Origin: Nocardia sp.
Lineage (GTDB): Bacteria; Actinomycetota; Actinomycetes; Mycobacteriales; Mycobacteriaceae
Assembly (NCBI GenBank): GCA_014360565.1
Contig: JACIXH010000011.1
Location: forward strand, 1-57,095
Length of the DNA: 57,095 nt
Direction of reading: 5' to 3'
Part shown: positions 13,940 to 29,805 of the stretch, one piece after another
How the letters are laid out: the number at the start of each line of letters is the position of its first letter
How positions within the stretch are numbered: position 1 is the stretch's first letter
The notes under the pieces: generated by a model
Told to the model about the DNA's origin: nothing
Databases searched by the model: none
What the model saw: the letters and a program-made list of their open reading frames with translations, nothing else
Program-made: the position numbers and the translations under genes

Positions 13940-15538
13940 TCAGGTCAGGTCGACCAGCACTACCTTGGCGGCGCCGACGACCTTCTCGATCCACGCTTTC
14001 GTTTCGGTGGATACCTTCTTGTCGACCCGGAGGACCACGGTGGCACCTGCGGCATCGACATCCTGTGCCAACTGTGCGGCCTTGATATCGACTCCGGCCT
14101 GGCCGAGAACGGTTCCGATGTAACCCAATTGTCCCGGGCGATCCTCGTAGTTCAGCACGGCCAGGTTCAGACCCTCGGCGCGCATGTCGTAGTTGCGCCC
14201 GTTGATGTTGACGATCTTCTCGACCAGGTTCGGCTCGGTCAGCGTGCCTGCCACGTTCAGGGTCGAACCGTCGCCGAACACGGCGCGCAGGTCGACGACG
14301 CTGCGGTGAGTCGGGCTCTCCGAAGCGGTGGTGACGGTGGCGGTGATGCCACGCTCCTTGGCCAGCGCGGGCGCGTTGACGAAGGTGACCTGGTCCTCGA
14401 CCAGCGCCGAGAACACACCGCGCAGCGCCGACAGCTCCAGCACGGCCACGTCCTGCGCGGACAGCTCGCCGCGAACCTGCACCTCGACGCTGACGGGCAG
14501 CTCGTTGGCGATGGCACCCAGCAGCGCGCCCTGCTTGCGGACGACGTCCAGCCAGGGGGCGACCTCGTCGTTCACGGCGCCACCGGTGACGTTCACCGCG
14601 CCGGGCACGAACTCACCGGCCAGTGCCAGCAGCACCGACTTGGCGACATCGGTGCCCGCGCGGTCCTGCGCCTCCGAGGTGGACGCACCGAGGTGCGGGG
14701 TCACGACGACCTGCGGGAGGTCGAACAGCGGCGAATCGGTGCACGGCTCGGTCTCGAACACGTCCAGACCGGCGGCGCGCACGTGGCCGGACTTGATGGC
14801 GTCGGCGAGCGCCTGCTCGTCGATCAGCCCACCACGCGCGGCGTTGACGATGATGACGCCCGGCTTGGTCTTGGCCAGGGTCGTCGCGTTGAGCATGCCC
14901 TTGGTCTCGGGGGTCTTGGGCAGGTGGATGGAGAGGAAGTCGGCGCGCTCGAGCACCTCGTCCAGGGTCAGCAGCTCGATGCCGAGCTGGGCGGCGCGCG
15001 CGGGTGAGGTGTAGGGGTCGTAGGCGACGATCTTGGTCTCGAACGCGGCCAGACGCTGCGCGAACAGCTGTCCGATGCGGCCGAGGCCGATCACGCCGAC
15101 GGTCTTGCCGAGGATCTCGACACCGTTGAACTTGCTGCGCTGCCAGGTCTTCTCGCGAAGGGTGGCGTCGGCGGCCGGGATCTGGCGCGCGGCCGAGAGC
15201 AGCAGCGTGACGGCGTGCTCGGCGGCGGTGTGGATGTTGGAGGTCGGCGCGTTGACGACCATCACGCCACGCTCGGTGGCGGCGGGCACGTCGACATTGT
15301 CGAGGCCGACACCGGCGCGCGCCACGATCTGTAGCTTCTTGCCCGCGTCGAGCACCTCGGCGTCGACGGTGGTGGCGGAGCGCACGAGAATCGCGTCGGC
15401 GTCGGGGACCGCGGCGAGCAGCGCCGGGCGGTCGGGACCGTCGACCCAGCGAACCTCGACACCGTCACCGAGTGCGTCGACGGTCGACTGGGCGAGCTTG
15501 TCGGCGATCAGAACTACAGGACGGCCTGCTTGGCTCAC
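13940..15538 (-). CDS. serA: D-3-phosphoglycerate dehydrogenase, full-length mycobacterial type
   Basis: A 532-aa type 1 enzyme catalysing the first step of serine synthesis (3-phosphoglycerate to 3-phosphohydroxypyruvate). The order is an N-terminal substrate domain, the NAD fold with VGLGRIGQ near residue 150, the catalytic Arg in NAARGG, Glu, and His in TPHLGAST. An allosteric intervening domain and a C-terminal ACT domain (ILNYEDRPGQLGYIGTVL) follow. Length and sequence match M. tuberculosis SerA (528 aa). Finding it in a mobile copper island with a CTAC-N11-GTAG box 60 bp upstream is unusual. Its pathway leads to O-phosphoserine, the substrate of CysK2 encoded in the same island. Start GTG or ATG is 9 nt after GAGGAG. 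Confidence 0.95.
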   Translation of the reverse strand: MSQAGRPVVLIADKLAQSTVDALGDGVEVRWVDGPDRPALLAAVPDADAILVRSATTVDAEVLDAGKKLQIVARAGVGLDNVDVPAATERGVMVVNAPTSNIHTAAEHAVTLLLSAARQIPAADATLREKTWQRSKFNGVEILGKTVGVIGLGRIGQLFAQRLAAFETKIVAYDPYTSPARAAQLGIELLTLDEVLERADFLSIHLPKTPETKGMLNATTLAKTKPGVIIVNAARGGLIDEQALADAIKSGHVRAAGLDVFETEPCTDSPLFDLPQVVVTPHLGASTSEAQDRAGTDVAKSVLLALAGEFVPGAVNVTGGAVNDEVAPWLDVVRKQGALLGAIANELPVSVEVQVRGELSAQDVAVLELSALRGVFSALVEDQVTFVNAPALAKERGITATVTTASESPTHRSVVDLRAVFGDGSTLNVAGTLTEPNLVEKIVNINGRNYDMRAEGLNLAVLNYEDRPGQLGYIGTVLGQAGVDIKAAQLAQDVDAAGATVVLRVDKKVSTETKAWIEKVVGAAKVVLVDLT

Positions 15539-15598
15539 TGTGGGGTACTCCTCTGGCTGGGTTCGACGGTGAGTTCGTGTCGAACAGAATGTCGCTAT

Positions 15599-15617
15599 CT
15601 ACGTAGTTAGACAGTAG
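15599..15617. promoter_or_regulatory. BlaI-type operator box between serA and the copper-storage gene
   Basis: Exact CTAC-N11-GTAG, extended to TATCTAC/GTAGATA. It is followed on the minus strand by TAGATAGCG (a likely -10 for serA) and on the plus strand by TAGATAC (a likely -10 toward the Csp gene at 15847). One box may therefore control both divergent genes. Sites at 8105 and 16364 share its TCTACGTAG left half. Confidence 0.75.
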
Positions 15618-15800
15618 ATACTGGGCGCGAGCACAGCAACTGATCCGAGGTGTGGCGCACGCCATGTGCTGCTAGTTAGGCAACCGGGAGACTGCATCGG
15701 GACCAGTTCCGCGAGACTGGTTGTCTCGACTGATCCGCTGTGGCGTCGCGGTTTCACCGCCCGATAGCCGGGTAATGCGCCGACGACCAGCTGATTCGCC

Positions 15801-15822
15801 GTCGCCGACATAAGTCGGCGAC
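15801..15822 (+). promoter_or_regulatory. Stem-loop in the long leader of the Csp gene
   Basis: A perfect 9-bp stem, GTCGCCGAC/GTCGGCGAC, with tetraloop ATAA. It is placed 10 nt before the GAGGAGA ribosome site of the copper-storage gene. The leader from the box at 15599 would be about 220 nt and also contains CGAGAC/GTCTCG repeats near 15710. A role in translation control is possible but unproven. Confidence 0.4.
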
Positions 15823-15846
15823 CCGTCGCCGTCGAGGAGAAAATTC

Positions 15847-16251
15847 ATGGGTACCGTCGCTGAACTGCTCGACTCATATCCGGCCGACCTCGGCCAGGTC
15901 GACCGAAAGGTGCTTGCCACCTGCATCGAGCGATGTTTCGAATGCGCACAGGCCTGCACCGCCTGCGCGGATGCCTGCCTCAGCGAGCCGGGTGTGGCCG
16001 AGATGGTCAAATGCATCAGATCCGACCTCGACTGTGCCGACATCTGTGACACCACGGGCAGAGTGGTGTCTCGCCACACCGGCTACGACGCGAACCTGAC
16101 CCGGGCCCTACTCGAGGCGTGCGCCACCGCATGCGCGAGCTGCGCAGATGAATGCGAACGCCATACCGCGCACGAGCACTGCCGTGTTTGCGCACAAGCA
16201 TGCCGGCGCTGCGAGACAGCCTGCCGGGAGCTGATCGCGGCACTCGGCTGA
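15847..16251 (+). CDS. Four-helix-bundle copper storage protein (Csp3-like)
   Basis: A 134-aa Cys-rich protein with 18 Cys, arranged mostly as CxxxC or CxxC pairs along predicted helices (CIERCFECAQACTACADAC at 26-44 and CRVCAQACRRCETAC near the end). Cytosolic Csp3 proteins also carry about 18 Cys lining a four-helix core that binds many Cu(I) ions per chain. No signal peptide is present, so it is cytoplasmic. The ATG follows GGAGAA at 8 nt spacing. It is divergent from serA and probably shares its operator. It should buffer large amounts of Cu(I) during stress. Confidence 0.92.
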   Translation: MGTVAELLDSYPADLGQVDRKVLATCIERCFECAQACTACADACLSEPGVAEMVKCIRSDLDCADICDTTGRVVSRHTGYDANLTRALLEACATACASCADECERHTAHEHCRVCAQACRRCETACRELIAALG

Positions 16252-16363
16252 CCGACCCATGCACCGGAGAGGTCGGCGCCGTCACGATAGGCGCGGAATG
16301 CTCGAGCGATTCCGGGTCCATCTAGTTCGGGCCGCTGATTGCTGGTGCCCCGGCGGGCGAAGT

Positions 16364-16382
16364 CTACGTAGGGAAATCGTAG
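16364..16382. promoter_or_regulatory. BlaI-type box in a convergent gap (orphan)
   Basis: Exact CTAC-N11-GTAG, with TCTACGTAG left half and GTAGATAC right half as at 15599. It lies in 16252-16457, between the 3' ends of the Csp gene (+) and the membrane protein gene (-), so no recognised gene starts from it. It may drive a short or antisense RNA. On minus, an imperfect GGAAT/ATTCC stem around GCTCGAGC lies about 60 nt downstream. Confidence 0.6.
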
Positions 16383-16457
16383 ATACACGTTCGGTGGTGG
16401 GGGCGGCGGGTAGCGCTCGAGCGCACCCGTCCGTCCTGCTCGTCTCCATGGCTTCTT

Positions 16458-17516
16458 TCACGCCTGCCGACTTCCAATCTCGAACGCGGTCGCGAGCGTC
16501 GCGGACACCAAGGCCGACAGCACGACTGTCCCGGTGGCGAGTTCGGCCGACCAGGCCACCCCCGGGCCGAGCTGCAAGGCGACCAACTGCGCCGACCACA
16601 GGAGCGTCGGCAGCGCGACCGCCGCCACCGCCACCGTCGGTACCCGGGGCGCCACGGCTGCGAATGCCGCGACAAATCCTTCGACGACCAGCCCGGCGAC
16701 GACGGCCGCGATCACGACCGAGGGCCGGGTGAAGTTTTGCACTGTCTGGGCGAGGACCGCCAACACGGTGACGAAGACGGTGATCGCCCCGAGCGGCAAC
16801 CGTCGCCGCATCAGCAGTAGCACCACTGGTAGCACGACCAGCACCGTGGTGACCAGGTACGCGCCTAGGCCGGCCTGGGCCGGGATCTCGGTGGCGTAGT
16901 GCTCCGGCGTGCCCTCGGGAAAGTTGCCGACCGCGCGCAGTGGCGCGTCGGTGGTGAACGCGGAGACGTAGCTGAGGGCGAAGCCGATGATCCCGGTGAT
17001 CGCGGTGGCGGCGACGACCGCGGGCGCTGCCCAGATCGGGGCGGTCGGCTGTTTGATCTGGGTCGCGCGCAGCGGGCCGGAGAACAGCAGCACCGCCCCG
17101 GTGAACAGGAGCAGGTGGGTCGGGCTGATCAATGCGTCGAGCCCGGATTCGACTCCGAACCTGATGTGCCATCCCATGTCCGCGACTCCGGCGGCGAAGA
17201 AGACACCGACCCCGGCTAGTGACCAGCCATATCCCGGGGGCATCAATACCAGCGCCGAGATCAGTGATCGACCTGCCCTGCGCCGCACCCCCATCGCCAG
17301 CAGCAGGGCGGCCGCCGTGCCGAGGCCGGAATACAGCAGCAGATGCCACCACGTGAAGAACGAATCGGGCAAATCAAGATAGTGTGCGCGCCCGTCCAGG
17401 TGCACTGCCACCACGATCCATACGCTCGCGGCGGCCATGGCGAGGTCCTCGCCATGGGTGCTGTCGGCGGTCGTTGACCCAACGCCTATGCCGTCCTGCC
17501 GTTGCATGTTCACCAT
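16458..17516 (-). CDS. CsoR-controlled polytopic membrane protein of unknown function
   Basis: A 352-aa protein with about ten hydrophobic segments from residue 25 to the end. His residues lie within or next to helices (SFFTWWHLLLYSG, ADMGWHIRFGVE, LISPTHLLLFTG) and could bind metal or heme. I recognise no family. Two CsoR/RicR-type operators stand just upstream (17569 and 17606), which ties it to copper more directly than its neighbours. ATG 17516 is chosen; an upstream start at 17627 would run into the operators. There are no soluble domains. It may be a copper transporter or a membrane assembly factor; this is inference from context. Confidence 0.75.
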   Translation of the reverse strand: MVNMQRQDGIGVGSTTADSTHGEDLAMAAASVWIVVAVHLDGRAHYLDLPDSFFTWWHLLLYSGLGTAAALLLAMGVRRRAGRSLISALVLMPPGYGWSLAGVGVFFAAGVADMGWHIRFGVESGLDALISPTHLLLFTGAVLLFSGPLRATQIKQPTAPIWAAPAVVAATAITGIIGFALSYVSAFTTDAPLRAVGNFPEGTPEHYATEIPAQAGLGAYLVTTVLVVLPVVLLLMRRRLPLGAITVFVTVLAVLAQTVQNFTRPSVVIAAVVAGLVVEGFVAAFAAVAPRVPTVAVAAVALPTLLWSAQLVALQLGPGVAWSAELATGTVVLSALVSATLATAFEIGSRQA

Positions 17517-17568
17517 GGTCCGGTCTCTCTTCGGCTCGATGCGAGCCCTGGTGACCCACGACACCAAT

Positions 17569-17585
17569 ATACCCACTAGGGGTAT
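17569..17585 (-). promoter_or_regulatory. CsoR/RicR-type operator 1 (tandem)
   Basis: A near-perfect 17-bp palindrome, ATACCC-ACTA-GGGGTAT, the consensus form of the actinobacterial copper repressor site. It is 53 bp upstream of the membrane protein start on the minus strand. Confidence 0.88.
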
Positions 17586-17605
17586 CAAGGTAAACCGAGA
17601 ATACC

Positions 17606-17622
17606 TATACCCCCTAGGGGTT
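17606..17622 (-). promoter_or_regulatory. CsoR/RicR-type operator 2 (tandem)
   Basis: Reads ATACCCCC-TAGGGG-TT, with the same spacing as operator 1 and a centre-to-centre distance of about 37 bp. A doubled site suggests tight or graded copper control. Confidence 0.85.
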
Positions 17623-17742
17623 GACAAAGGCGGGCGGGGATGTCGCGCTCAGGTGGACGGCCGCGGCAAGGCGGTCCGGCCCCGCCTGGCTGGCATTGGG
17701 CGCGAACTATGTATTCGGGCAGTAGGTACCGCTCATTCGAAA

Positions 17743-17758
17743 AGTGACACAAATCACA
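17743..17758 (+). promoter_or_regulatory. CRP/Cmr-type site upstream of the M23 peptidase gene
   Basis: Contains GTGA-N6-TCAC, the core of mycobacterial CRP sites. It is about 270 bp upstream of the peptidase start. In M. tuberculosis the cell-wall enzyme gene rpfA is a known CRP target, so control of a wall hydrolase is plausible. A single match to a short motif. Confidence 0.4.
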
Positions 17759-17822
17759 TGGTTTCGAAATATTCTGTGTAGCAGGGCAATTCAGTGAGAC
17801 GATCTTCGGTTGAAGGGGTCTC

Positions 17823-17841
17823 TTACTGCATGACGCAGTAG
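17823..17841 (+). promoter_or_regulatory. Degenerate BlaI-type box (TTAC-N11-GTAG) upstream of M23 gene
   Basis: One base off the consensus. It is followed by TAGATAT (17839-17845), a likely -10, giving a leader of about 180 nt before the peptidase start at 18026. I see no structure in this leader like the ncRNA copies. Confidence 0.5.
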
Positions 17842-18025
17842 ATATCCGCAGGTGAGTCGCCTAACTACCTGAGTCCTCACGCCCGAACCGCGGTGTTCAC
17901 GAAATGTTGCGGGACGGTCACGGATCGGTACAGTTCCTATCACGCCGCGCGCCGAAAGTCGCTGTCGATAAGTCGGCAACGACCTGGTCGAGCCGGCCTT
18001 TCGCCGACCGACCCGAGGACGAGCC

Positions 18026-18772
18026 TTGTCACATCACCGAAAAGCTTCTGGTTCCGTGTCCGTTCAACATCTGCTCGCCGACTCCAGGCGTTCGGGTCGG
18101 CATCGCGCCGAAACCACGCCGGATGGCCGAATAAAGGTGGCCGTCGGCGTCGCGGCTGCTGCCGGAGCTCTCCTCAGTACGTCGACGCAGGTCGCGATGG
18201 CAGCGCCGTTGGCGCCGGATGTCGCCCATGACGTGGAACCTGCTGCCGCACCGTTTGGATTGGCTGGACTGCCCGCCGAAGTTGTCGGCCCGCTCGCCCA
18301 GGCAGAACAGTTCATCGAGGATCTGCAGCAGCAGGCTATTCCCGCCCCGCCGCAAGCGGTAGCGCCACCGGCGGCGTTGCCTTTGGCTGGTGACATCAGT
18401 TCTGTATTCGGTGCGCGATGGGGTCAGTTCCATTCCGGTGTAGACATCGCGGATGCGCTAGGGACGCCCATTCGGTCCGCTCTCGCCGGGACGGTGCTCG
18501 AAGCCGGTCCGGCATCCGGATTCGGTCAGTGGATTCGTATAGGGCAGGACGACGGAACAACCGCCGTGTACGGCCATATCAATGACATCTATGTCCAGGA
18601 AGGTCAGCGAGTGAACGCCGGCGATGTGATCGCTTCGGTCGGCAACCGCGGCATTTCCACCGGCCCGCACTTGCATCTGGAAATCTGGGATCAGGACGGT
18701 GTCAAGATCGACCCACTGCCCTGGATGGCCAGCAAGGGGATTGTGATGGAACAGCATTGGGGTGCTGACTGA
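18026..18772 (+). CDS. Secreted M23 (LytM) peptidase
   Basis: A 248-aa protein. A TTG start follows GAGGACGAG; the N-terminus is basic, then a hydrophobic signal segment lies at about residues 36-60 (VAVGVAAAAGALLS...VAMAAP). An Ala/Pro-rich linker leads to a C-terminal LytM domain (about 125-240). Zinc motifs are visible: HSGVDIA (HxxxD), and HLHLE (HxH) near residue 222, with GHI between. The enzyme cuts peptidoglycan cross-links or activates amidases outside the cell. A wall hydrolase in the copper regulon might remodel the wall or make room for conjugation. The start is less certain than the domain. Confidence 0.85.
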   Translation: MSHHRKASGSVSVQHLLADSRRSGRHRAETTPDGRIKVAVGVAAAAGALLSTSTQVAMAAPLAPDVAHDVEPAAAPFGLAGLPAEVVGPLAQAEQFIEDLQQQAIPAPPQAVAPPAALPLAGDISSVFGARWGQFHSGVDIADALGTPIRSALAGTVLEAGPASGFGQWIRIGQDDGTTAVYGHINDIYVQEGQRVNAGDVIASVGNRGISTGPHLHLEIWDQDGVKIDPLPWMASKGIVMEQHWGAD

Positions 18773-18780
18773 CCGATGGT

Positions 18781-18825
18781 CCTGAAGTGGGGCCGGATCG
18801 CCACAATCTCTCGCCCCACTTCAGG
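18781..18825. terminator. 13-bp inverted repeat after the M23 peptidase gene
   Basis: Arms CCTGAAGTGGGGC and GCCCCACTTCAGG are separated by 19 nt, starting 9 bp after the M23 stop. It can stop the + transcript and is the 3' stem of ncRNA copy 3 on the minus strand. Confidence 0.75.
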
Positions 18826-18926
18826 GGATTGCGGCGAAAGCACGAGATGAGGGATCGTGCTATTTTTCGCCGCAGTCGACGCCCCAGGAGGGAGCGTCTC
18901 GCGCCAGCTCAAGTCGCTGACGCAAG
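18781..18926 (-). ncRNA. Candidate structured ncRNA, copy 3 of 3 (minus strand)
   Basis: Transcribed leftwards from the double box at 18930-18955. It begins CTTGCG (complement of 18921-18926), as copies 1 and 2 do. A compound hairpin follows: outer GCGGCGAAA/TTTCGCCGC (18865-18873 with 18831-18839) and inner GCACGA/TCGTGC around loop TCCCTCATC. It ends in a 13-bp stem (18813-18825 with 18781-18793) that starts with GTGGGGCGA on the RNA. Sequence similarity to the other copies is concentrated in the start, the loop and the final stem; the paired bases differ and still pair. The last stem doubles as a terminator for the convergent M23 gene. There is no gene in 18773-19111 that I can support. 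Confidence 0.55.
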
Positions 18927-18929
18927 CAT

Positions 18930-18955
18930 CTACTATCTACGTTAGTAGACAGTAG
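18930..18955. promoter_or_regulatory. Two overlapping BlaI-type boxes
   Basis: Both 18930-18948 and 18937-18955 read CTAC-N11-GTAG exactly. Together they form an 11-bp inverted repeat with one mismatch and a 4-bp centre (GTTA), the best site in the island. On the minus strand TAGATAGT overlaps it and would serve as the -10 of ncRNA copy 3. The flanking genes converge, so the RNA is the only evident target. Confidence 0.75.
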
Positions 18956-19111
18956 TCTGCTTGATCTGTTGGCGCAACATCGCTGGTGACGGAGGCAGCC
19001 GCGTCGCACTCGCAGGTCAACCGCTCGAGCCCGCCTCACCGTGCTCGGGCTCCGCAAGCCCATGGACCCATCGGGCGCAGGAGACTACGAGTATCGAGGG
19101 ACTGGACACGC

Positions 19112-19732
19112 TCATTTTTGCCCCAGCAGTGTCTCCATCTGGGTGATCTCTTGCTGCTGTGCCGCCACGATGGTTTCGGCCAGCTGTTTTGCCTGGGGGT
19201 TGGTTCCCGAGCTGATCTCGGTTTGGGACATCTCCACCGCTCCACGGTGGTGGTCGATCATCATCTGCAACCACATCTTGTCGAACTCCGGCCCGGACAT
19301 CGCCTCGAGCGAAGACATCTGCTCCGGCGACATCATTCCGGGCATGTCGTGGTTCATCGCGCCGCTGGCAGGGTCCGGTTTTCCGAAGCTCGCCAGCAGC
19401 GACTGAATCTGGGTCATCTCGGGCTGCTGGGCTGCCTCGATCCCGGCCGCGAGGTCGATGACCTGTTGGTCCTGGGACCGTGAAGGCACCAGCTGTGCCA
19501 TTTGCACGGCCTGCTCGTGGTGGGGGTACATCATCTGCAAGAACGTCACGTCGGCGTCGTTGAAAGTGGCCGCCGGGGCGGTGGTATCCGCCGAACTCAC
19601 CGACACGCCGGGTGTGGTGGAGGGAGGCTGGACCGTGGGGGAGTCGCCGTCATCGCCGCAGCCGGCGACGACCAATGCGACCAACCCGATACACGGAATG
19701 AGCCTTCGAGCCATGATGGAACGTCGAGACAT
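19112..19732 (-). CDS. DUF305 family lipoprotein
   Basis: A 206-aa protein. The ATG follows AGGAG by 5 nt. The signal ends in the lipobox VVAGC near residue 25, so it is anchored outside. The DUF305 domain spans about residues 55-205, with the ligand-rich motifs FLQMMYPHHEQAVQMA, MNHDMPGMM and MWLQMMIDHHRGAVEMS. HH plus Met clusters are typical of copper-associated DUF305 proteins. It lies about 130 bp downstream of the Met-rich micropeptide on the same strand and may be co-transcribed with it. Expected role is extracytoplasmic copper binding. Confidence 0.9.
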   Translation of the reverse strand: MSRRSIMARRLIPCIGLVALVVAGCGDDGDSPTVQPPSTTPGVSVSSADTTAPAATFNDADVTFLQMMYPHHEQAVQMAQLVPSRSQDQQVIDLAAGIEAAQQPEMTQIQSLLASFGKPDPASGAMNHDMPGMMSPEQMSSLEAMSGPEFDKMWLQMMIDHHRGAVEMSQTEISSGTNPQAKQLAETIVAAQQQEITQMETLLGQK

Positions 19733-20367: not shown

Positions 20368-21015
20368 CTACATCCTGAAGGCCGCGGGGCTGACCGGGAC
20401 GAACTTCGCGTCAAGGTCGTGGCTGTCGGGGGTACAGGCGTAAAACGGGCCGACTGGGTTGGTCAGGGTGTTGAGCAGCGGATAGAAGAAGTCGCGGAAG
20501 TACACGGCCATGGCGGCACCGGGCTGGACGACTGCTTCGAGCCACGCGCGGCGTAGCGACCACAGCACCGTGACCGCTTCGGGGTGTTCGTACCATTGTG
20601 AGCACCAGCAGATCGCGCCGTTGGCAGTGCTTGTCGCCGAGCGCGGTAGTTTGCGTTGGGCCCACGTACCGATGTTGGCGATCACCCAGTCCAGCAGCAC
20701 TTCCATGTCGATCTGGTCCATGGCCGAGTCAGGGGGAGTAGTCGCTGGGGTTGCCACCGTTTCGGCTGTACCCGGTGGTGCGCCGGTGACTGTGCTGGGC
20801 GGGGCGCTCGCGGTCATCCGGTCAGCGAGTACTCCGAGCGCTGTTTCGAACTCGTCGAGTCCCTGGGCCGAGCGGGCGGCGGTAGCGTCGACACGCTCGA
20901 CTTTCGTTGACAGCAACCGGTTTTGGGTGCGCATCTCGACGATCGCTTCGCTCAGCATCGCGAGCTGGTCGCGCAGTTCTCCGAGACGCGTGTCCGGAGA
21001 CCCGTCAGTGCTCAC
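20368..21015 (-). CDS. DUF4913 family protein of actinobacterial conjugative elements
   Basis: A 215-aa protein. GTG 21015 overlaps the stop of the coupling-protein gene (GTGA). Residues 8-75 look like a coiled coil (RLGELRDQLAMLSEAIVEMRTQNRLLSTKVERVDATAARS), followed by a Pro/Thr-rich linker. The C-terminal half is a DUF4913 domain with CWCSQWYEHPEAVTVLWSLRRAWLEAV, YFRDFFYPLL and GPFYAC. The family is found in Streptomyces and Nocardia conjugative elements; its function is unknown. It is the last gene of the conjugation operon. Contact with the coupling protein is plausible from its position. Confidence 0.8.
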   Translation of the reverse strand: MSTDGSPDTRLGELRDQLAMLSEAIVEMRTQNRLLSTKVERVDATAARSAQGLDEFETALGVLADRMTASAPPSTVTGAPPGTAETVATPATTPPDSAMDQIDMEVLLDWVIANIGTWAQRKLPRSATSTANGAICWCSQWYEHPEAVTVLWSLRRAWLEAVVQPGAAMAVYFRDFFYPLLNTLTNPVGPFYACTPDSHDLDAKFVPVSPAAFRM

Positions 21016-22736
21016 GCCGCACTCGCCTCCGCGTTGTCGTCGAGTCGCCGACGCAGTGTCTTCGCGACCGGGTTGGCCGGACCTAAATGCTCGATCGCGG
21101 CGTTCTGCACCTCCTGGGTGGCCTCGTCCCGGACCCGTTCGATGTCGCCCTTTTCCGGCTCGGTGTACCAGGGAATAAGGTCGATCAGGACCGGCTTCGA
21201 GGACTGCCGGATCAGCAACGCGTTGTGCTTTTTCATCGCGGCGATGTCTTCGACGGGCATGATCGGCTCGAGTGATCCGCGGTCGTTGGAGGTGGTGACA
21301 CCGCCAGGACCGTGCGAGCGGCGGCGCTCGCGGGGCTTGTACTGGCCGACAAGACCGGAGATCTTGCGCAAGAACGGCTCGTCCTGCAATCCGGCGCCGA
21401 GAATGCGCACGGTCGACGCGCCCCACAATGCAGCTGCTTCGTCGGCGCCCCAGGTGGAGATGATCTGTGCTTCGGACTGGAAGATCGCGGTGACGCACAT
21501 CGACTTCGAGCCCAGATGCGAAGCAAGTTTCGGCAGGCGCTTGATCCGGCAGATGTTGGCGCATTCGTCAAGGACAAGTGTCAGAGGCGGGTCGACGCGT
21601 CCGCCATGGGCTGATGCGGCGAGGTCGCCGAGTTCGAAGATCTTGGCGACCATCGCGGCGATCACCGCGCCGGCGCTGCCCGATCCTTCTTGAGTCATCA
21701 GGTACAGGGTTGGAGCCTTGCCGTCTTCGAAGGCGAACAGCGACCACAGGTCGAGTTCGGTGATCTTTTCCGTGGTTGGCTGTTCCCAGGTGTGCGGTGG
21801 GGTGATCCAGCGCAAGGTCTCTTCGTCCTGGATCGAAGCCAACGCGGTCTGGGCCTCACCGTAGACGCCGCCTCGGGTTTCGGGTGGTAGGTCCAGCACG
21901 GCGGCCAGAGCGTTGCCCGCGCGGCGATTTCCGTGTTGGAGCAGGATGTCGATCGGTTTGTCGGAGTAGGTGTCGATCCAGTCCAGGACATCGCGCATGG
22001 TGCGTCCGCTCAGCGCGGCGGCCAGCAGCGCCCATGCCAATAGGTTTTTTCCGGTGGGTGCGAAGAACGGGTCTTCGTTCTGGGCGGAGCCCGCACCGCG
22101 GTTCTCCTCGATGAAGTGCTCGGCGATCATCTTGGCCTCGCGCAACGTCGTGACGGCGGAAAGGATGTTCCACCACCATGTTTGGGGGGCGTAGGCGATC
22201 TGGCTGGGGTCGAAGACGTAGACCGGTCCGACTGCTTTGCGTAGGGCTCCGGTGAGAATCCATAGGTCGGGTTTGTTCGAGGTGGCGATTATCGCGCCGG
22301 GTGCGGACAGGATGCGCGGGACGGCGACGGCCGAGGTTTTGTTGCTGCGCGGTCCCATCAGCACGATGGTGAAGTCCTCCCAGGACGCGTAGACCAGTTT
22401 GCCCACCAGGCGACCGATCACCGGGGCCAGCTCCCGCATGGACACGCCCTTGGCGGTATCGATGGAGGCACGCAGGCCAGCCCCCCGCTGGGCAGCGTTC
22501 TTGCCGAGCATGTCTGGGATCTGGCTCTTGTCGCGCAGCAGCGTTTCTGGCGTCTCGCGCGGCCACGCTTTGCGCACTGCCCACCCCAGCATGGCCACCA
22601 GCAGAACCAGCACCACCGTGACCAGCGCGATCACCAGCAATGAGGTGCCTTGTTCGTGGATTCGGTAGACGCCGTAGCCGATTCCGGCCGCGACGAACGC
22701 CGCGATCCACACCCAGGCCAGCGCGGAATCTTCCAT
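21012..22736 (-). CDS. Type IV secretion coupling protein (TraG/TraD/VirD4 family)
   Basis: A 574-aa protein with two N-terminal membrane helices (about residues 5-25 and 31-53). The P-loop is LMGPRSNKTSAVAVP near residue 125; Walker B is LTLVLDECANI near 380, with a TraG-like FQSEAQ motif after it. The enzyme hexamer links the DNA-relaxase complex to the secretion channel and pumps DNA. AAGGAG precedes the ATG. The start overlaps the stop of the upstream paralogue by 1 nt (TGATG). Length is normal for actinobacterial members. No relaxase gene is next to it, which is unusual. Confidence 0.93.
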   Translation of the reverse strand: MEDSALAWVWIAAFVAAGIGYGVYRIHEQGTSLLVIALVTVVLVLLVAMLGWAVRKAWPRETPETLLRDKSQIPDMLGKNAAQRGAGLRASIDTAKGVSMRELAPVIGRLVGKLVYASWEDFTIVLMGPRSNKTSAVAVPRILSAPGAIIATSNKPDLWILTGALRKAVGPVYVFDPSQIAYAPQTWWWNILSAVTTLREAKMIAEHFIEENRGAGSAQNEDPFFAPTGKNLLAWALLAAALSGRTMRDVLDWIDTYSDKPIDILLQHGNRRAGNALAAVLDLPPETRGGVYGEAQTALASIQDEETLRWITPPHTWEQPTTEKITELDLWSLFAFEDGKAPTLYLMTQEGSGSAGAVIAAMVAKIFELGDLAASAHGGRVDPPLTLVLDECANICRIKRLPKLASHLGSKSMCVTAIFQSEAQIISTWGADEAAALWGASTVRILGAGLQDEPFLRKISGLVGQYKPRERRRSHGPGGVTTSNDRGSLEPIMPVEDIAAMKKHNALLIRQSSKPVLIDLIPWYTEPEKGDIERVRDEATQEVQNAAIEHLGPANPVAKTLRRRLDDNAEASAA

Positions 22737-23473
22737 CACGCACTCCTTCGCAGGGCGCCGACATTCACAACCTGCACCGACACGCCCGCCTCCTGGGCCG
22801 CCAGCAGCAGCTCGGCCCTCAATGCTGCGGCTACGCCCGCGCTGCGGGTGCCAGGCACCTCGACGACGAAGATCTCCCCATGCGCGGCGAGCGCACCCGA
22901 TTCGAGGCGCGGCAGTTGTTCCATAACCGACCCTGCCCCCGCCTGCGGGCTCAGGGCGGCGAGGATCGGGCCGTAATCCAGTGGCAGCACGGCTTGGCGG
23001 ACCACCGCCCAGATCGCGGCCTGCTCTCCCGCCGGCGCTTGTCGGAACGTGTCCATATCCGCGGTCGGACCGTGCTCGCCGGACAGGTCCAGCAGGCGGT
23101 AGGGCTCGTTCAGGTTGCCGGTGTGGATCCAGTCGAGAACGTCGGTGAGGTTGCGTCGTCCGCGTACGGCGGCCAGGAGCAGGTTCGCGGTCATCAGCGA
23201 TGCCTCTGGGACGAAGAACAACGCGCCTTCGTCTTGAACCACGGAGAACAGCGCCTCGGCGATGCGGTCGGCGTCGGTGGCATCGGTGATTGCTGCGAGT
23301 AGGTCCCATCGGAAAGCTGTTGCTGGGCCGCATAGTTCGGGGTTCCACACGAGGCTCTGGCCCCACCAGCGGCGCGGCAGTGCCGCAACATGGTCGGTGA
23401 CCGTGATGATCATGGCGGTGGTTGTGCCACCGGGATCGGGGTTCCAGTCTGGTGCGGAGATGACCTCCCGCAT
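22736..23473 (-). CDS. Coupling-protein-like paralogue lacking ATPase motifs
   Basis: A 245-aa protein. Residues 45-120 (VWNPE...RWDLLAAITDATDADRIAEALFSVVQDEG...NLTDVLDWIHTGN) align by eye with the segment of the downstream coupling protein that runs from YVFDPSQIAYAP through NILSAVTTLREAKMIAEHF to DVLDWIDTYSD, with similar spacing. The Walker A loop and membrane helices are missing. The C-terminal part (GEIFVVEVPGTRSAGVAAALRAELLLAAQEAG) still resembles a RecA-fold strand and helix. It could be a regulatory or substrate-adapter subunit of the coupling ATPase. Start ATG 23473 has AAGGATC upstream. Overlapping placement in the operon argues against decay. Confidence 0.65.
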   Translation of the reverse strand: MREVISAPDWNPDPGGTTTAMIITVTDHVAALPRRWWGQSLVWNPELCGPATAFRWDLLAAITDATDADRIAEALFSVVQDEGALFFVPEASLMTANLLLAAVRGRRNLTDVLDWIHTGNLNEPYRLLDLSGEHGPTADMDTFRQAPAGEQAAIWAVVRQAVLPLDYGPILAALSPQAGAGSVMEQLPRLESGALAAHGEIFVVEVPGTRSAGVAAALRAELLLAAQEAGVSVQVVNVGALRRSA

Positions 23474-23498
23474 CACGATCCTTTCCCGAGTCGGTCGC

Positions 23499-25136
23499 TC
23501 ATGCTGCACGGTTGCTCCGCTCCGAGGCGGGGCCGTCGAGTGCGCTGAAGGCGCCATCGGTGTTGTAAAGGGTGAGTTCTTCTGGTGTCAGGTCGACATT
23601 CACGGGCAACCCCATGCGTGAGCCGGATTTGATGAGGTACTTGCCTCGGCCGGGATGTCGCTGACCGGGCACCCAGGTCGGTGGCGCAGACCATCGCGTC
23701 ACCAACTCCTTCTCGCCGGAGGTAAACGGTGAAATCGCGTGCAGCCGATCCATTTCGGCATTGTCGAGCCCGCCGATGACCTTGATGGCGTTGCGGGCGA
23801 CCATGCCTTTGGCTTTGGCGCGGTCGGCCTCGGTCGGGAGCGCCTCCAGGTCGGTAATGGAGTGCGTCGACTGGACCGACACCACTCCGCGTCTGCGGTT
23901 GAGTCGGGTCATCCGGTCGGACTTCTCGACCAAGCCGGGAGCCGCGCGCAGCGCCCGCCACAGCTCGTCTTGGGGCTGGAAAATATTGCGGCGTTGTCCG
24001 GCGGCCTGCTTGCCCTCGATCAGGCCCGCCGACCATGCCCATGCGCACATCATTGCGGCGGCCACCACATCGTCGCCGTCGTCCTCCACGGCGCCGAGCG
24101 ACAGCGAGATCGCTGGCGGGTCGGCGTCGAGGGAGAAGCTCGACGGCCGGTCGAACATGCCCTTGATCGGGCCTTCACACAACAGGACCAACGTATTACG
24201 CAGCTCGCGGATCTCGCGCTGGTAGTCGTGCTCATCGCGGGCTGCCACGACGCGCAGCAGCGGGTCGGTGGCGGAGTCGAGGATCTTTACCAGCTCGGGG
24301 ATCGTCGGATCGGGCAAACCGCAGCGTTGGCTGGCGGCATCGGCTTGGTCGACGGTCATGGCCAGCAGCAGCCGTTCGGTGGCAGTGAGGTCCTGGCCGC
24401 CGACGATCGTGATCAGCGATTCCAGCAGGTCCAGCCGACGACCGCGAGCCTGGGAGACCAGCTGCTCGCGTGCGGTGCCCACCGCCGCGTTGATCGCGCC
24501 GCGTAGCGGCCCGAGGTCGAGGGGGTTGAGGCTGTGGAGGCCGCGCCCGATACGGAACACCTTGCCGTCCAACGCTTCTACGATCGGGGTGTATTCGTCT
24601 TTGATGTCGCCGGGGATCACCGCGGCGAACCCGAACGCGACAAGACCGACGAGCAGGCGCTTGATCGCGGTGGACTTCCCGATGCCGGGCTGTCCTTGCA
24701 CCCACAGGCCGGTGTTGGTGACCAAACCGTCGACCAGCCACTGCGAGGGGTCGAGTCCGATGGGTTCGGCGGTGTGTAGGTGGCGGCCGAACGGGACGCC
24801 GCGCACTCGTGCACCGGACGCGGCAGGGAACGGGTATAGGCCCTGGACTTGGGTGGTTGTGCCCGCGAACAGGCGCCCGGCGTCGACGTTGTGGGCGTAC
24901 CCACCGAAGGGTCGATGCTCCCCTCGCGCGTCGGGAATCGGGGGCATCGACGCGAAAGGCGCGAACGGGTTGAACGGTTCTTGGCCGGGCTCATCAGGAT
25001 CGAGCGAATCCTGTGTGCGGTAAGCCGGGACAACTCCCAGCTTGGCCAGCCAGCGTTCAGCCAAACCTGCACGGCCTGCCGCCCGATGCAGCCGCGCAGT
25101 GGCCTCGGCTTCGGTGACAAATCCGGTGCCGGTCAC
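23499..25136 (-). CDS. VirB4/TraC-like conjugation ATPase
   Basis: A 545-aa protein. The P-loop GQPGIGKST is near residue 150, preceded by a beta-rich N-domain and followed by PGDIKDEYTPIVEAL and a Walker-B-like IFQPQDELWRAL near 395. A TGT-containing start and HSITDLEAL sensor segment match actinobacterial VirB4-type proteins that work next to SCO6880. GTG 25136 overlaps the stop of SCO6880 (GTGA), which fits the operon pattern; GTG 25145 would add three residues. It powers assembly of the mating channel at the inner face of the membrane. Confidence 0.85.
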   Translation of the reverse strand: MTGTGFVTEAEATARLHRAAGRAGLAERWLAKLGVVPAYRTQDSLDPDEPGQEPFNPFAPFASMPPIPDARGEHRPFGGYAHNVDAGRLFAGTTTQVQGLYPFPAASGARVRGVPFGRHLHTAEPIGLDPSQWLVDGLVTNTGLWVQGQPGIGKSTAIKRLLVGLVAFGFAAVIPGDIKDEYTPIVEALDGKVFRIGRGLHSLNPLDLGPLRGAINAAVGTAREQLVSQARGRRLDLLESLITIVGGQDLTATERLLLAMTVDQADAASQRCGLPDPTIPELVKILDSATDPLLRVVAARDEHDYQREIRELRNTLVLLCEGPIKGMFDRPSSFSLDADPPAISLSLGAVEDDGDDVVAAAMMCAWAWSAGLIEGKQAAGQRRNIFQPQDELWRALRAAPGLVEKSDRMTRLNRRRGVVSVQSTHSITDLEALPTEADRAKAKGMVARNAIKVIGGLDNAEMDRLHAISPFTSGEKELVTRWSAPPTWVPGQRHPGRGKYLIKSGSRMGLPVNVDLTPEELTLYNTDGAFSALDGPASERSNRAA

Positions 25137-26626
25137 GCTAGCCACCTCTGTGCGGCACTACGCGAAAGTCCCGAGGTCGGCTCGATGCCATAACCGAGCG
25201 AAGCCGCGAACGCGGCGGGCTGCGCGCCACGGGCCCGGCGGAACTGCAATTTGGTCGCGCTGACTCGATCCTCGATATCGGCGCAGGCCGCTGCCAAGGT
25301 TTCCTCGTTGCGTGTCGTGGTCGTGACATACATGGTGAATCGGCCGAGTCCCGCGCCCATCGACTCCTCCTGTGCGGCCTTACGCGCGCGCACACGATCG
25401 TCGAATTCTCTCTGGGTCTCGTCCTTTTTCGTTTTGGTGTTCCAGAGTTGGCGGAGTTTGCCGCCCTGAATTTCACGTTCGACGATGTCGGCTGCGGCTG
25501 CGGCGCTGTAAGGTCGGTAGACCAACGAGAAACGCCGATAAAACTTTCCCGGACTGACCAGTTTGAGCAGGATATGGTGGCGCACAACGCTACTGGGCAT
25601 TCCCTTGAGCACCCAGGTCACCGAATAGCCCGAGTCGTGGTAGTAGACATCCTTGGTGGTTTCGGCGCGCAGGGCGCTTGCGTCGGTCCAGACCAGCAGT
25701 TCGTCGTCATCGTCGGGGGTGTCGGACAGGAAGATCCGGATGGCGGGGTCGACCGCGGCGCGGATGTTGCGTATCACCGACGCGGTGGACGCGCGGTCGG
25801 TCACCGTCGCCCCGGCCGCGGCGAGCGCGGACTCGATGCGCGGCAGCCACCGCACCACCTCGGCCGCACCTTCGGACAGCGTCTTGGGCTGCGGCGATGC
25901 CTTGGATAGATCGAAGTTCACCGTGACCCGCATCTGAATGTCGGCGGTGGTCGAACGTGACTGGTTGACGGCCTTTTCCATGATCTTCTTGGCCAGCGCG
26001 GGCGCGTTTTTGCCGTCGCGCTCCATACGCGCGAGGGTGTAGGCGCGCTGGTCGACACCGCCGGTCGGCGACGATTCACACGTGAAAACGACCGAGGAGA
26101 TGATCGGGGTGAACCCGAGATCGGCCAACCAGGCGCCGTAGTTGCGGACCCACGCGGTGGTGTCGGCGCTGTCGGCCAGGGTGATCCCGACCGGGGACAC
26201 CCTCAGCACCGCCGACAGGATGCCGGTGCGTCGGTTCCAGATCAGGCACTGAGTGCCGCCGCGACCGTCTTCGACGGTCAACGGCATCAGCGGAGCCAAC
26301 ACACCGGGCATGTTCTCCCCGCGCGGCACCTCTTCGAGGACGTCGGCGGCGTAGGCGTCGCTGTTGTGGCGGTTGCCCCACCACGCCCGGACGTTCCAGA
26401 TCAGATGTTCGACGACGGTGCGTCGCGAGTCGCCCATCGGGACGATCGTCAGTGCCAGCACGGGGATGGCGATGAACAGGCCGATGAAGGCCGCGAACAG
26501 GTTGATGAATGTGGTGAAGGCCAATCCCACCACCGAGGCCAGGATGATGGCTGTGCCGCTGGTTCCCAGGCGGCCCAGCCCGTAGCCCTTGACTTCGCGG
26601 AATCCGCCGTAGCCGGTGTCGCTCAT
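25133..26626 (-). CDS. SCO6880 family conjugation protein
   Basis: A 497-aa protein with an N-terminal pair of membrane helices (about 24-66), then a long soluble part like the N-domain of VirB4 (TQCLIWNRRTGILSAVLRVSP, VYYHDSGYSVTWVLKGMP, GLGRFTMYVTTTT). The SCO6880 family, a PrgI-like plus VirB4 N-terminal-like protein, is specific to actinobacterial type IV systems and always next to the VirB4 ATPase, as here. The ATG has AAGGAC at 7 nt spacing. It probably forms the channel base with the VirB4 protein. Confidence 0.9.
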   Translation of the reverse strand: MSDTGYGGFREVKGYGLGRLGTSGTAIILASVVGLAFTTFINLFAAFIGLFIAIPVLALTIVPMGDSRRTVVEHLIWNVRAWWGNRHNSDAYAADVLEEVPRGENMPGVLAPLMPLTVEDGRGGTQCLIWNRRTGILSAVLRVSPVGITLADSADTTAWVRNYGAWLADLGFTPIISSVVFTCESSPTGGVDQRAYTLARMERDGKNAPALAKKIMEKAVNQSRSTTADIQMRVTVNFDLSKASPQPKTLSEGAAEVVRWLPRIESALAAAGATVTDRASTASVIRNIRAAVDPAIRIFLSDTPDDDDELLVWTDASALRAETTKDVYYHDSGYSVTWVLKGMPSSVVRHHILLKLVSPGKFYRRFSLVYRPYSAAAAADIVEREIQGGKLRQLWNTKTKKDETQREFDDRVRARKAAQEESMGAGLGRFTMYVTTTTRNEETLAAACADIEDRVSATKLQFRRARGAQPAAFAASLGYGIEPTSGLSRSAAQRWLA

Positions 26627-26699: not shown

Positions 26700-28352
26700 T
26701 CATCGGTGTTCGGGCCCGACGTCGTCACCGGTCATCTCCGCGCCGACGTCGTCGGCGGCATTGGCGGCCGCACTGGCCGCTGAGAGCCCGGCTTGGATCG
26801 CCATGGAGACCCCGCCGGTGGCAGCTGCTCCTGCGGCGGCGGTGGAGCTACCGTCGGCCGCTGCGGCGCCACCAGCCTCAGTGCCACCGGCGACGTCGAT
26901 GCCACTGCCGTCGCTGCCGCTCGGTGTGGTGGGTGTGCCGGAGGCATCGGGATTCTCGGGCTGCGGGCCTGGTCCGGCTTCGAGTTCGAGCCCGGAACTA
27001 CCGGTGCCCAGCGCTTTGGGCGAGGACCCCGATTCCAACTGGGCCTGTCCACCACCAGAAGTCAGAGCGGAGGTGCCCCCGTTGCCCGGCGACGGGTCGG
27101 GCTCGCCGCCACCGGGGCCGGTCGCGGACATGAAGCTCGCGAATCCATCCCCACCCGAGGAAGAGCCCGAGCCGCTTCCACCCATGGCCGCAGCGGCGCC
27201 GAGCGCCCCGCCCGCCAGACCACCGACCGCGAGGCCGAGCGCGCCGGAGCCGCCGCTGACGTGCATGCCCATGAAGTCGAAAAACTTCAGCATCGCGGGC
27301 AAGGCGATCACCGCGAGCGCGATCACCATCAAGCCGGTGACCAAGGTGGTCAGCGATTGCTCCTGACCGATGAGCTGAAAACCGAGGGAGTAGATGAACG
27401 CCGCCATCGGCTTGTAGAGCACCAGCGCCACGCACGTGGCGGCGATGCGGGGGAACCACTGCCGCCCCCACGTGGTGAGCTGTCCCGCAGCAGCGAACAG
27501 AATCATGTTGTGCAGCACGACGATTCCGGCCTGGCGGATAAAACCCATCACCCACTGGATCGCGCCGAGCAAGAACGCGACGATACCCAGCAGCAGCACA
27601 CCGCCCGGGTTGCCGATGGTCGAGGTGCCCAGCATGGCTTGGACTCGTTGGCCGAACTGGTTGGCGTCGGTGTCGATGATCTGGTGAGCGAAGTCGTCTC
27701 CGGCGTGGATCGCGCCGGAGAGCACGATCAACGCCATCGAGGAAATGACGATGTATTTCACTCCGCCGAGCAGGATCTGCGCGCCTGGCTCGGTGCGGCG
27801 GGTCACCATCATCACCATGGCGCCGCTGAGGACCCCGGCCATCATGATGAAGAACACGACTTTCTGGACCGGTGCCTTGTCCGCCATCACACCCGCATAG
27901 GACAGGCTGATCGAGTCGGTACCGATCCACCAGGTCATCGACTCGACCAGCAGGTCACCGCTGAACTTTCCGATGGATTCAGCAGCCTTACCGAACGCCG
28001 AGTCCACCGCCTTGCCGACCGTGTTGTCGGCGACCCTGCCCGGGTTCAGGTCGATCGTGGTTTGTGTTGCGCCGTTGTTGATTTGAGCTCGGAACGCGGT
28101 GTCGTCGTTCGAGTAGAGGTAACCGGTGTCGGGTTTGTTCTCGCACCCAGGGAACTGGGGGTGCTGCGAGCACCAGATCACGCCGTCGGCGTCGCGCCAG
28201 CTCTTCTGCTCAGAGCTGAGTTCGGAGAGTTTCTGTGGCATGCCCGGTGGTGGCGGCTCGGCCGAGACCAATGCCGCTGGGCCCATCATCAGCGCCAGCA
28301 GCATTCCCACTAGCGCTATGGGCCGCAGAATCGACCAGGTGTTCGTGCTCAT
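26700..28352 (-). CDS. TrbL/VirB6-like polytopic conjugation protein
   Basis: A 550-aa protein with a signal-like first helix (to residue 31), a Cys-containing periplasmic stretch (WCSQHPQFPGCEN), then about six membrane helices between residues 150 and 360, and a long Gly/Ser/Pro-rich tail from 385 to the end. The layout is that of TrbL/VirB6 proteins that form the membrane part of the mating channel; the flexible tail is common in actinobacterial versions. ATGA overlap with the upstream gene stop at 28349. No catalytic motifs expected. Confidence 0.82.
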   Translation of the reverse strand: MSTNTWSILRPIALVGMLLALMMGPAALVSAEPPPPGMPQKLSELSSEQKSWRDADGVIWCSQHPQFPGCENKPDTGYLYSNDDTAFRAQINNGATQTTIDLNPGRVADNTVGKAVDSAFGKAAESIGKFSGDLLVESMTWWIGTDSISLSYAGVMADKAPVQKVVFFIMMAGVLSGAMVMMVTRRTEPGAQILLGGVKYIVISSMALIVLSGAIHAGDDFAHQIIDTDANQFGQRVQAMLGTSTIGNPGGVLLLGIVAFLLGAIQWVMGFIRQAGIVVLHNMILFAAAGQLTTWGRQWFPRIAATCVALVLYKPMAAFIYSLGFQLIGQEQSLTTLVTGLMVIALAVIALPAMLKFFDFMGMHVSGGSGALGLAVGGLAGGALGAAAAMGGSGSGSSSGGDGFASFMSATGPGGGEPDPSPGNGGTSALTSGGGQAQLESGSSPKALGTGSSGLELEAGPGPQPENPDASGTPTTPSGSDGSGIDVAGGTEAGGAAAADGSSTAAAGAAATGGVSMAIQAGLSAASAAANAADDVGAEMTGDDVGPEHR

Positions 28353-29038
28353 CGCCCTGCCCTGTCATGGAAGGTCGTGAACCCTGTCAGGCCCGTCGAG
28401 TTCGGCAGTTCGGGGAGGCCCGAATCGACCTGGTAGACCCAGTCGTTGCCGTCCCAGAGCGTGGCGCGGCGCACGAAGTCGTAACCACCCTTGTTGGACG
28501 GCACTGCGAAGTAGATCCGCGCGAACATCGGTGTGTAGGTGGCGAATTGGAAGGCGACCGGCTGACGGAAGGCTGCTTCGAACTCTTCGGCGGACAGGTT
28601 GCGGGTCTGGGTGACCGCGTTGCGTACCTGCTGTTGCTGGCCGAGGTCGGCGCGCACCTGGGTACCGAGCAACTGCTCGTAGCGGGCGTCGGTCTGAACC
28701 CGTGCCGCGATCTGCCACGCTGCGACGAGCGCGCCCTGCGGAGTGTGGGTGTAGCCGTGGGCGCGCGGCCCATCGACCTGGGTGGGCCCGTCCGCGCCGA
28801 AGGGCAGACGGACGCCGTTGATCAACTTCCAGTCCAGCTCGCGTGGCGGCGTCGTGACGGTGACTGCGTCTGGCGAGGGGGGTGTCGCGAAATCGTTTGG
28901 CTGGTCGCGTATTACGGCGACCGCGATGATTCCGGCGACTGCGCCCAGTACGGCGGTGACGGCCACCGGCAACCAGCGCCACAGTGGTCGTGGGTCGCGG
29001 GGTGCGGGGTGTTCGGCAAATTCTCGGGTGGTGAACAT
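28349..29038 (-). CDS. Conjugation protein with VirB8/NTF2-like outer domain, copy A
   Basis: A 229-aa protein with a cytoplasmic start, one membrane helix (about residues 20-43), then an extracellular domain. The motifs DGPTQVDGPRAHGYTHTPQGALVAAWQIAARVQTD recur in the next gene (29053-29805), so the two are paralogues. The layout (short N-terminus, one helix, about 170-residue alpha/beta domain) resembles VirB8/TraM-like subunits. AAGGAAAA precedes ATG 29038. Two paralogues could form a hetero-oligomeric ring. Family call is from architecture and context. Confidence 0.65.
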   Translation of the reverse strand: MFTTREFAEHPAPRDPRPLWRWLPVAVTAVLGAVAGIIAVAVIRDQPNDFATPPSPDAVTVTTPPRELDWKLINGVRLPFGADGPTQVDGPRAHGYTHTPQGALVAAWQIAARVQTDARYEQLLGTQVRADLGQQQQVRNAVTQTRNLSAEEFEAAFRQPVAFQFATYTPMFARIYFAVPSNKGGYDFVRRATLWDGNDWVYQVDSGLPELPNSTGLTGFTTFHDRAGR

Positions 29039-29052
29039 CAGAGTTTTCCTTG

Positions 29053-29805
29053 CTACAGCGGGGTGAATCCGGTCAGGTCTGCCGTTTCTGGCAGCGCCGG
29101 GGCGCTCAGCTCGTTGCTGTAGCGCCAATCGCCGTCGCGCCACACCACCGCTTGACGGGTGATCCGGAAGGAACCGGAGGCGCGGGGGTAGGCGTAATAG
29201 ATCGTTGCGGCGTCGCCGGTGTAGTCGCCGACCTTGAAGCCGGCGGGCTGCACAGTGCTGGCCTGCACGGCGGCCGGGTCCAGCCGAGGCTGGCTGATAC
29301 GGGCGGTGAGGATCTGGTGACGGTCGGCGGGTGAGACCGCGGCCTGAATGTCGAGGACGCGGGCGAAATCGGGGGAATAGAGCAGTCGCATGCCGATCTG
29401 CAGTGCCGCGACGGTCGCGCCTTGCGGGGTATGGGCGTAACCGGTCGTGACCGCCCCGTCGATGTGGGAGGGCCCATCCGAGCCGGTGAAGGGCAGTGGC
29501 ACGCCGTCGACGCGCTGCCAAGAAAGCCCCTGGGGCGCGGCAGTCAGCCAGGCCGGGTCGGCAGGGGAGCGGGTGACCGGGATCTGGGGGACCAGCGAAC
29601 CCTTCGCGGCGGTCGTCACCACAGGCGTCGCGGCTGTTGCGATTGCGTCGCCTGGGGCATCGGTCTCGCCGTGGAAGCCCACACCGACAAGGGCGAGCGC
29701 GCCGACAACGGCGAGTGCCGCCGCGCTGACCGACCCGATCAGATACGCGCGGCGCGCTTTCGCCAGGCCAGTGGTGTCGCGGAACTCGGAGGTAGTCAAT
29801 GACAT
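29053..29805 (-). CDS. Conjugation protein with VirB8/NTF2-like outer domain, copy B
   Basis: A 250-aa paralogue of the gene at 28349: one membrane helix (residues 20-43), then DGVPLPF, GPSHIDGAVTTGYAHTPQGATVAALQIGMRL and a C-terminal YYAYPRASGSFRITRQAVVWRDGDWRYS segment that matches IYFAVPS...DFVRRATLWDGNDWVYQ in the partner. Both end in LTGFT. It lies 14 nt upstream of copy A. Duplication followed by divergence is likely. Confidence 0.65.
   Translation of the reverse strand: MSLTTSEFRDTTGLAKARRAYLIGSVSAAALAVVGALALVGVGFHGETDAPGDAIATAATPVVTTAAKGSLVPQIPVTRSPADPAWLTAAPQGLSWQRVDGVPLPFTGSDGPSHIDGAVTTGYAHTPQGATVAALQIGMRLLYSPDFARVLDIQAAVSPADRHQILTARISQPRLDPAAVQASTVQPAGFKVGDYTGDAATIYYAYPRASGSFRITRQAVVWRDGDWRYSNELSAPALPETADLTGFTPL

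Follow-up and report, generated by a model that had tools for sequence, protein, structure and literature searches.

Among coupling proteins (T4CPs) of the VirD4/TraG/TrwB type, the closest to the gene product described here is TrwB of R388 (PDB 1e9r, 1gl7), in which an all-alpha domain (AAD) and its flanking strands come in the same order as in our protein and which is also its best fold match. In the available parts of the works cited, AADs are described as drawing in substrate where the VirD4 hexamer has its base (PMC12624023) and are credited with recognition of the cognate relaxosome and activation of the channel (PMC7434980, citing Whitaker, 2015), and the way in which a coupling protein recognises its substrate and moves it is called still unclear (PMC12624023). 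CagZ of Helicobacter pylori, a small soluble regulator of the T4CP Cag-beta, acts through the AAD and, according to the accessible text, can hold the T4CP as a monomer when bound there (PMC9886983). The auxiliaries DotM, DotN, DotY and DotZ of the Dot/Icm system, which bind the C-terminal tail of DotL, are presented in the available excerpt as extra proteins that enlarge the T4CP into a substrate-recruiting platform (PMC12857230). Among the open-licence papers listed in our literature searches, T4CP regulators and auxiliary subunits are described, and no T4CP-derived helper subunit. We know of no auxiliary of the Dot/Icm coupling complex that is a paralogue of a T4CP. In the accessible portion of a 2025 review of type IV secretion systems, the word Actinobacteria occurs once, only for the host cells of Saccharibacteria. 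Actinobacterial transfer operons of the SCO6880 type with a DUF4913 gene have the same gene order around the T4CP as the window (the 57,095-nt stretch of Nocardia DNA analysed here); in those with a glycine-type P-loop and the ATPase gene in view, however, the T4CP follows the ATPase gene with no gene between them of the kind that we call the companion.

On the minus strand of the window, between roughly 32.9 and 20.4 kb, is a type IV secretion operon, whose last genes, all on that strand, encode in order a SCO6880-family protein (25133..26626; NCBIfam NF042935, 3.2e-139), a VirB4-like ATPase (23499..25145; P-loop GQPGIGKST), assigned from weak NCBIfam matches (3.5e-11 and 4.5e-9) and conserved gene order, the companion (22736..23473; 245 residues from an ATG), the cognate VirD4-type T4CP (21012..22736; Pfam T4SS-DNA_transf 2.3e-24, TraG-D_C 1.5e-27; 574 residues from its ATG, with a GTG at 22739 as a possible start) and a DUF4913 protein (20368..21021; Pfam PF16259, 2.4e-24). 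The first-pass annotation had the companion gene overlapping both neighbours; its sole overlap in the window is with the T4CP gene downstream, by 1 nt (TGATG, at the T4CP's ATG), or by 4 nt if the T4CP starts at the preceding GTG, and a gap of 25 nt separates it from the ATPase gene upstream, provided that translation does not begin at another in-frame start, further upstream. That gap holds a candidate ribosome-binding site for the companion (GGGAAAGG, 23480..23487, minus strand), and an AAGGAG in the companion's last codons (22743..22748, minus strand) may serve the T4CP, both read from the sequence. Among the 18 systems compared, the companion stop and the T4CP start share 1 nt in the window and in six others, and 4 nt in five, while a gap of 184 nt lies between them in locus L034 and the exact position is unplaced in five. 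A protein 100% identical to the window companion is present in Nocardia ignorata NBRC 108230.

Further observations concern the wider operon region. Where a single VirB4 gene is expected, there are separate SCO6880-family and VirB4-like ATPase genes (23499-26626, minus strand), an order that recurs in most loci with wide context, and the SCO6880-family protein may correspond to the N-terminal half of VirB4. Two adjoining operon genes (28349-29805, minus strand), neither of which matches a family in full, form a pair of paralogues (E 2e-30). No relaxase is found in the subset of window ORFs scanned with Pfam (20368-57095), and the sole PF03432 match in this incomplete genome lies on another contig (C268). 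A phosphoglycerate dehydrogenase gene and its neighbours (13940-19732) flank the operon in the window and in L038 and have no match in the DNA examined of L039-L044; this pattern, together with a phage-type integrase gene at 42324-43547, suggests that the operon region is an integrated mobile element. Six pairs of direct repeats of 19-24 nt came into question as its boundaries, none of them convincing.

The companion matches no Pfam or NCBIfam model, and a Pfam scan of 17 companions gave one match (E 0.093) and for the remainder none up to E 0.1, so that no curated family covers it. It had been aligned by eye with the middle of the T4CP in the first-pass annotation, which named a profile alignment without relation to TraD/VirD4 as a refutation; the relation is indeed found. 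A search of the genome's own proteins with the companion retrieves the adjacent T4CP (E 1.6e-5, 26% identity) and, from a different contig, a further T4CP (E 1.1e-4); a profile of ten companion relatives reaches the adjacent T4CP at E 1.4e-14 (match at 21639-22241), and in the opposite direction a search with the T4CP profile detects the companion at E 4e-7. In hhalign, the companion profile aligns with eight T4CPs at a probability of 97.4 and E 1.2e-11 over 187 collinear columns, and 17 companions, including the diverged type described below, align with the T4CP profile at a probability of 97.7 and E 1.5e-12. The alignable part of the T4CP starts after its P-loop and covers 21639..22232 (minus strand), and the segments picked out by eye (DLLAAITD...IAEALF and DVLDWIHTGN) fall inside the alignment.

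Walker A and the membrane helices had already been noted as absent in the first-pass annotation. A P-loop is absent from all 17 companions aligned, no Asp-Glu pair stands at the corresponding place in their last strand, where the T4CP has its conserved Walker B acids (Asp-Glu, 21564..21569, minus strand), and the window companion has no stretch hydrophobic enough for a membrane helix, its best 19-residue Kyte-Doolittle mean being 1.68 (0.86-1.95 across 18 companions). With net charges of -3 to -16, the companions are acidic in 18 of 18 cases, which makes direct DNA binding unlikely.

The AlphaFold2 model of the companion, made from seven alignment rows (mean pLDDT 56, pTM 0.49), is of modest quality and serves as a hint to the fold only; that of the T4CP (pLDDT 39.7) was left unused. 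In the companion model, two predicted strands are followed by nine helices, some of them short, a strand, a long helix and a strand. Searched with this model, Foldseek places TrwB chains at ranks 1-32 (best E 6.3e-3) and then Cag-beta, with no match at E 0.001 or better. VIA-align ranks TrwB at Z 9.8 (5.0 Å over 186 residues, residues 116-357 of the chain), followed by the Cag-beta AAD with CagZ (7.7), Cag-beta (7.4), the DotL complex (5.8) and DndH (5.3), the first unrelated chain having a Z of 4.4. As models that match nothing clearly often reach best Z values of 7 to 8 too, it is the sequence evidence and not the fold match that carries the homology claim. A PDB sequence search with the companion profile gave no hits, and a fold search of BFVD with the model nothing at E <= 0.001. 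Chance similarity to the T4CP is ruled out by the profile search, the hhalign alignment and the ranks of TrwB in Foldseek, and from the hhalign E-value and the TrwB Z-score, the model being modest, the all-alpha domain of T4CPs is recognisable in the companion. Alignment and fold matches together identify it with the stretch of a T4CP that starts at the strand following the P-loop and ends at the Walker B strand: it is an AAD with flanking strands, devoid of the P-loop, the membrane helices and all that comes after the Walker B strand. Since, compared with VirD4/TraG/TrwB T4CPs, it lacks the membrane domain, the P-loop, the Walker B acids and the C-terminal part, it cannot be a motor by itself.

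The companion is a maintained gene under purifying selection. Its Nei-Gojobori dN/dS lies between 0.15 and 0.44 in 14 of 14 pairs (pairs that share sequences, some with dS near or above 1), which bears out the earlier view of an in-frame gene that is no remnant, and an open frame of 223-255 codons is kept in all 18 companions compared. In each of the 14 pairs the companion's dN/dS exceeds that of the T4CP (0.08-0.30). Over 18 systems, mean identity is 32% for the companion, 43% for the DUF4913 protein, 60% for the T4CP, 64% for the SCO6880 protein and 70% for the ATPase, making the companion the fastest-diverging of the five operon proteins compared. Raw correlations of its distance matrix with those of its operon partners are all 0.96-0.98; the partial correlation is highest with the SCO6880 protein (0.44; T4CP, 0.31).

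In Nocardia, Rhodococcus and Gordonia, companions sit in one and the same slot, after the gene of the VirB4-like ATPase and before that of the T4CP, and the T4CP adjoins in all 43 companion loci, repeats among them. Ten plasmid records in PLSDB match the window companion, six from Nocardia (75-77% identity along the full length) and four from Rhodococcus (35-42% along about half of it), and a scan of genome contigs gave seven loci, all in Nocardia. Environmental Rhodococcus plasmids with the companion and T4CP pair include pRoPD630_3 of R. opacus PD630 and plas4 of R. erythropolis KB1. A match to the companion profile at 1e-6 is present in 128 of 150 Nocardia genomes, most, among the matches listed, lying in full T4CPs; taking open frames of at most 359 residues with E < 1e-40 as companions, there are 11 copies in 10 of the 150, each with a T4CP match just downstream (among the matches listed, to about E 3e-7). 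In the class sample, where the best six candidates per genome were considered, 48 of 394 genomes have a profile match and the window's own is the only one of companion size, the others lying in frames of at least 460 residues; the profile used (A3) predates the diverged type, so that this result speaks for the first companion type only. With the T4CP profile, 12 of 401 genomes in the family sample pass 1e-90, seven of them with the asparagine-type P-loop described below. Of the genomes searched in the genera around G018 and G076, 2 of 8 and 2 of 9, respectively, carry companions, and 18 pattern matches among viral contigs include no companion relative.

A second, much diverged type of 223-234 residues sits in the same slot in five genomes (L103, L135, L136, L137, L138) and three Gordonia plasmids (L115, L116, L117). 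It aligns with the first type in hhalign (probability 72.9, E 3e-5) and on its own is not detectably T4CP-like (probability 1.3, E 0.04 against the T4CP profile); we count it as a companion from its position and the alignment to the first type, with this caveat.

The T4CPs beside companions share a peculiarity of their own. Most members of our comparison set have the usual P-loop (G/A)PRxGK(S/T), whereas the window T4CP reads GPRSNKTS (22332..22355, minus strand), with asparagine in place of the glycine before the lysine, as does every companion-bearing T4CP aligned. All 25 distinct T4CPs of one clade have the asparagine and none of 77 others does, and 22 of the 25 (GPRSNKT) adjoin a companion. 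The exceptions, which have GPRSNKT and no companion, come from two plasmids of Rhodococcus opacus (L118, L119) and one of Amycolatopsis (L120): the interval from the ATPase stop to the start of the T4CP profile match is 14-202 nt in them as against 673-996 nt in 14 companion loci (28 loci given, the ATPase in view in all but two), and a companion-profile search of the three whole plasmids at E <= 10 returns T4CPs only. Counted by locus, 43 of the asparagine type have a companion and 6 have none (three records, each twice); loci repeat each other, the distinct T4CPs being 22 with asparagine and companion, 3 with asparagine alone and 77 of the glycine type. No companion-like ORF occurs in the DNA examined of the 94 glycine-type loci, 34 of which have the upstream ATPase gene in view: it is directly upstream in 31 and across a longer interval in 3, and lies outside the examined DNA in the other 60. 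In the three with the longer interval (L010, L027 and L029; 558-682 nt), the T4CP frame reaches into the interval and no companion-like ORF is found. A strict link between the asparagine P-loop and the companion is thus ruled out by the three exceptions, and the companion as a general part of this secretion system by its absence from the glycine-type loci in view. The first-pass annotation had named absence from functional relatives as a test: the gene is there beside 22 of 25 asparagine-type T4CPs, yet it is missing from three and stands beside no glycine-type T4CP seen, and so this type of transfer system needs no companion in general.

In a quick tree of 102 T4CPs, the asparagine type forms one clade (SH-aLRT 100) and the companion bearers one subclade (99). 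Both have 100/99 in a careful tree of 41 T4CPs, comprising all 25 of the asparagine type and 16 chosen ones of the glycine type, where L118, L119 and L120 branch first in the asparagine clade, with lower support (94/91) for the fork placing L118 and L119 above L120. On the simplest reading, this branching suggests that the asparagine came first and the companion was gained once; as the root is a midpoint one and L120 a long branch, repeated loss is also possible.

The companion is most likely an auxiliary subunit in the coupling complex, and an unusual one, since it is a T4CP paralogue that has no motor; that it belongs to this complex as an accessory subunit, whatever its role there, we hold to be probable. 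It would have descended from part of a T4CP, keeping the AAD and adjoining strands and losing the membrane anchor and the motor. Because the genes are adjacent or overlapping, it is presumably made together with the T4CP, and it would join the coupling complex and act through AAD contacts, in the recognition of the cognate relaxosome and in packing at the ring's base. Two simple options exist for a motor-less AAD, to offer an extra docking surface for substrates or to occupy the packing surface of the ring's AADs, and we prefer the former because fast divergence fits a specificity part. Our tentative choice, plausible and short of probable, is accordingly a detached substrate-recognition module, a relaxosome adaptor that specialises the substrates accepted by the T4CP. 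The fast divergence is what a specificity part might show, yet it fits many other roles; against an adaptor, three relatives with the asparagine P-loop work, or at least persist, without it, the partial distance correlation is highest with the SCO6880 protein and not the T4CP, the structural model is a modest one, and the second companion type alone is not detectably T4CP-like.

The other option leads to a negative regulator of T4CP assembly, which would block the AAD packing face and keep the T4CP monomeric until substrate arrives, in the manner of CagZ, a possibility that we regard as unlikely. CagZ attaches to the AAD of Cag-beta and keeps hexamers from forming, as stated in the accessible text (PMC9886983), and a free AAD-like protein beside a full T4CP could act likewise by mimicry. 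If so, the companion would resemble it as a small soluble protein acting on a T4CP through the AAD. CagZ, however, is a different protein, described as unique to H. pylori, which binds an AAD where the companion resembles one, so that the two are likened by role only; and an inhibitor co-expressed in similar amounts, as the overlap suggests, would need a release step, of which none is seen. Returning to the relaxosome adaptor, it may also be imagined as half of a bipartite coupling complex, in which recognition and motor are in part divided between two genes, an asparagine-P-loop T4CP and a separately encoded T4CP-derived AAD module that diversifies with the relaxosome of each plasmid; this we consider unlikelier still.

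A structural cofactor that packs on the asparagine-P-loop motor and supports or tunes its unusual P-loop is improbable: each companion seen does adjoin such a T4CP, and the companion clade is nested within the asparagine clade, but three asparagine-type T4CPs have no companion beside them and none was found elsewhere on their plasmids, and those parts of the nucleotide-binding domain which make up the ATP site are missing from the companion. That the companion protein travels to the recipient, or that its role is otherwise unrelated to the T4CP, is very improbable, since AADs do contact substrates but homology to a T4CP is no reason to expect cargo. A decaying fragment of a T4CP duplication, which the presence of only part of a T4CP and the faster divergence could suggest, is ruled out by the dN/dS values and intact frames, and the recurrence of the same slot in three genera also speaks against it.

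A natural motor-less AAD beside a full T4CP, together with close relatives that do without it, provides a comparison for the role of the AAD apart from the motor, and the asparagine fixed in the P-loops of this T4CP clade offers a second feature open to direct testing. If the reading as an accessory subunit is true, actinobacterial conjugation would have a helper derived from a coupling protein.
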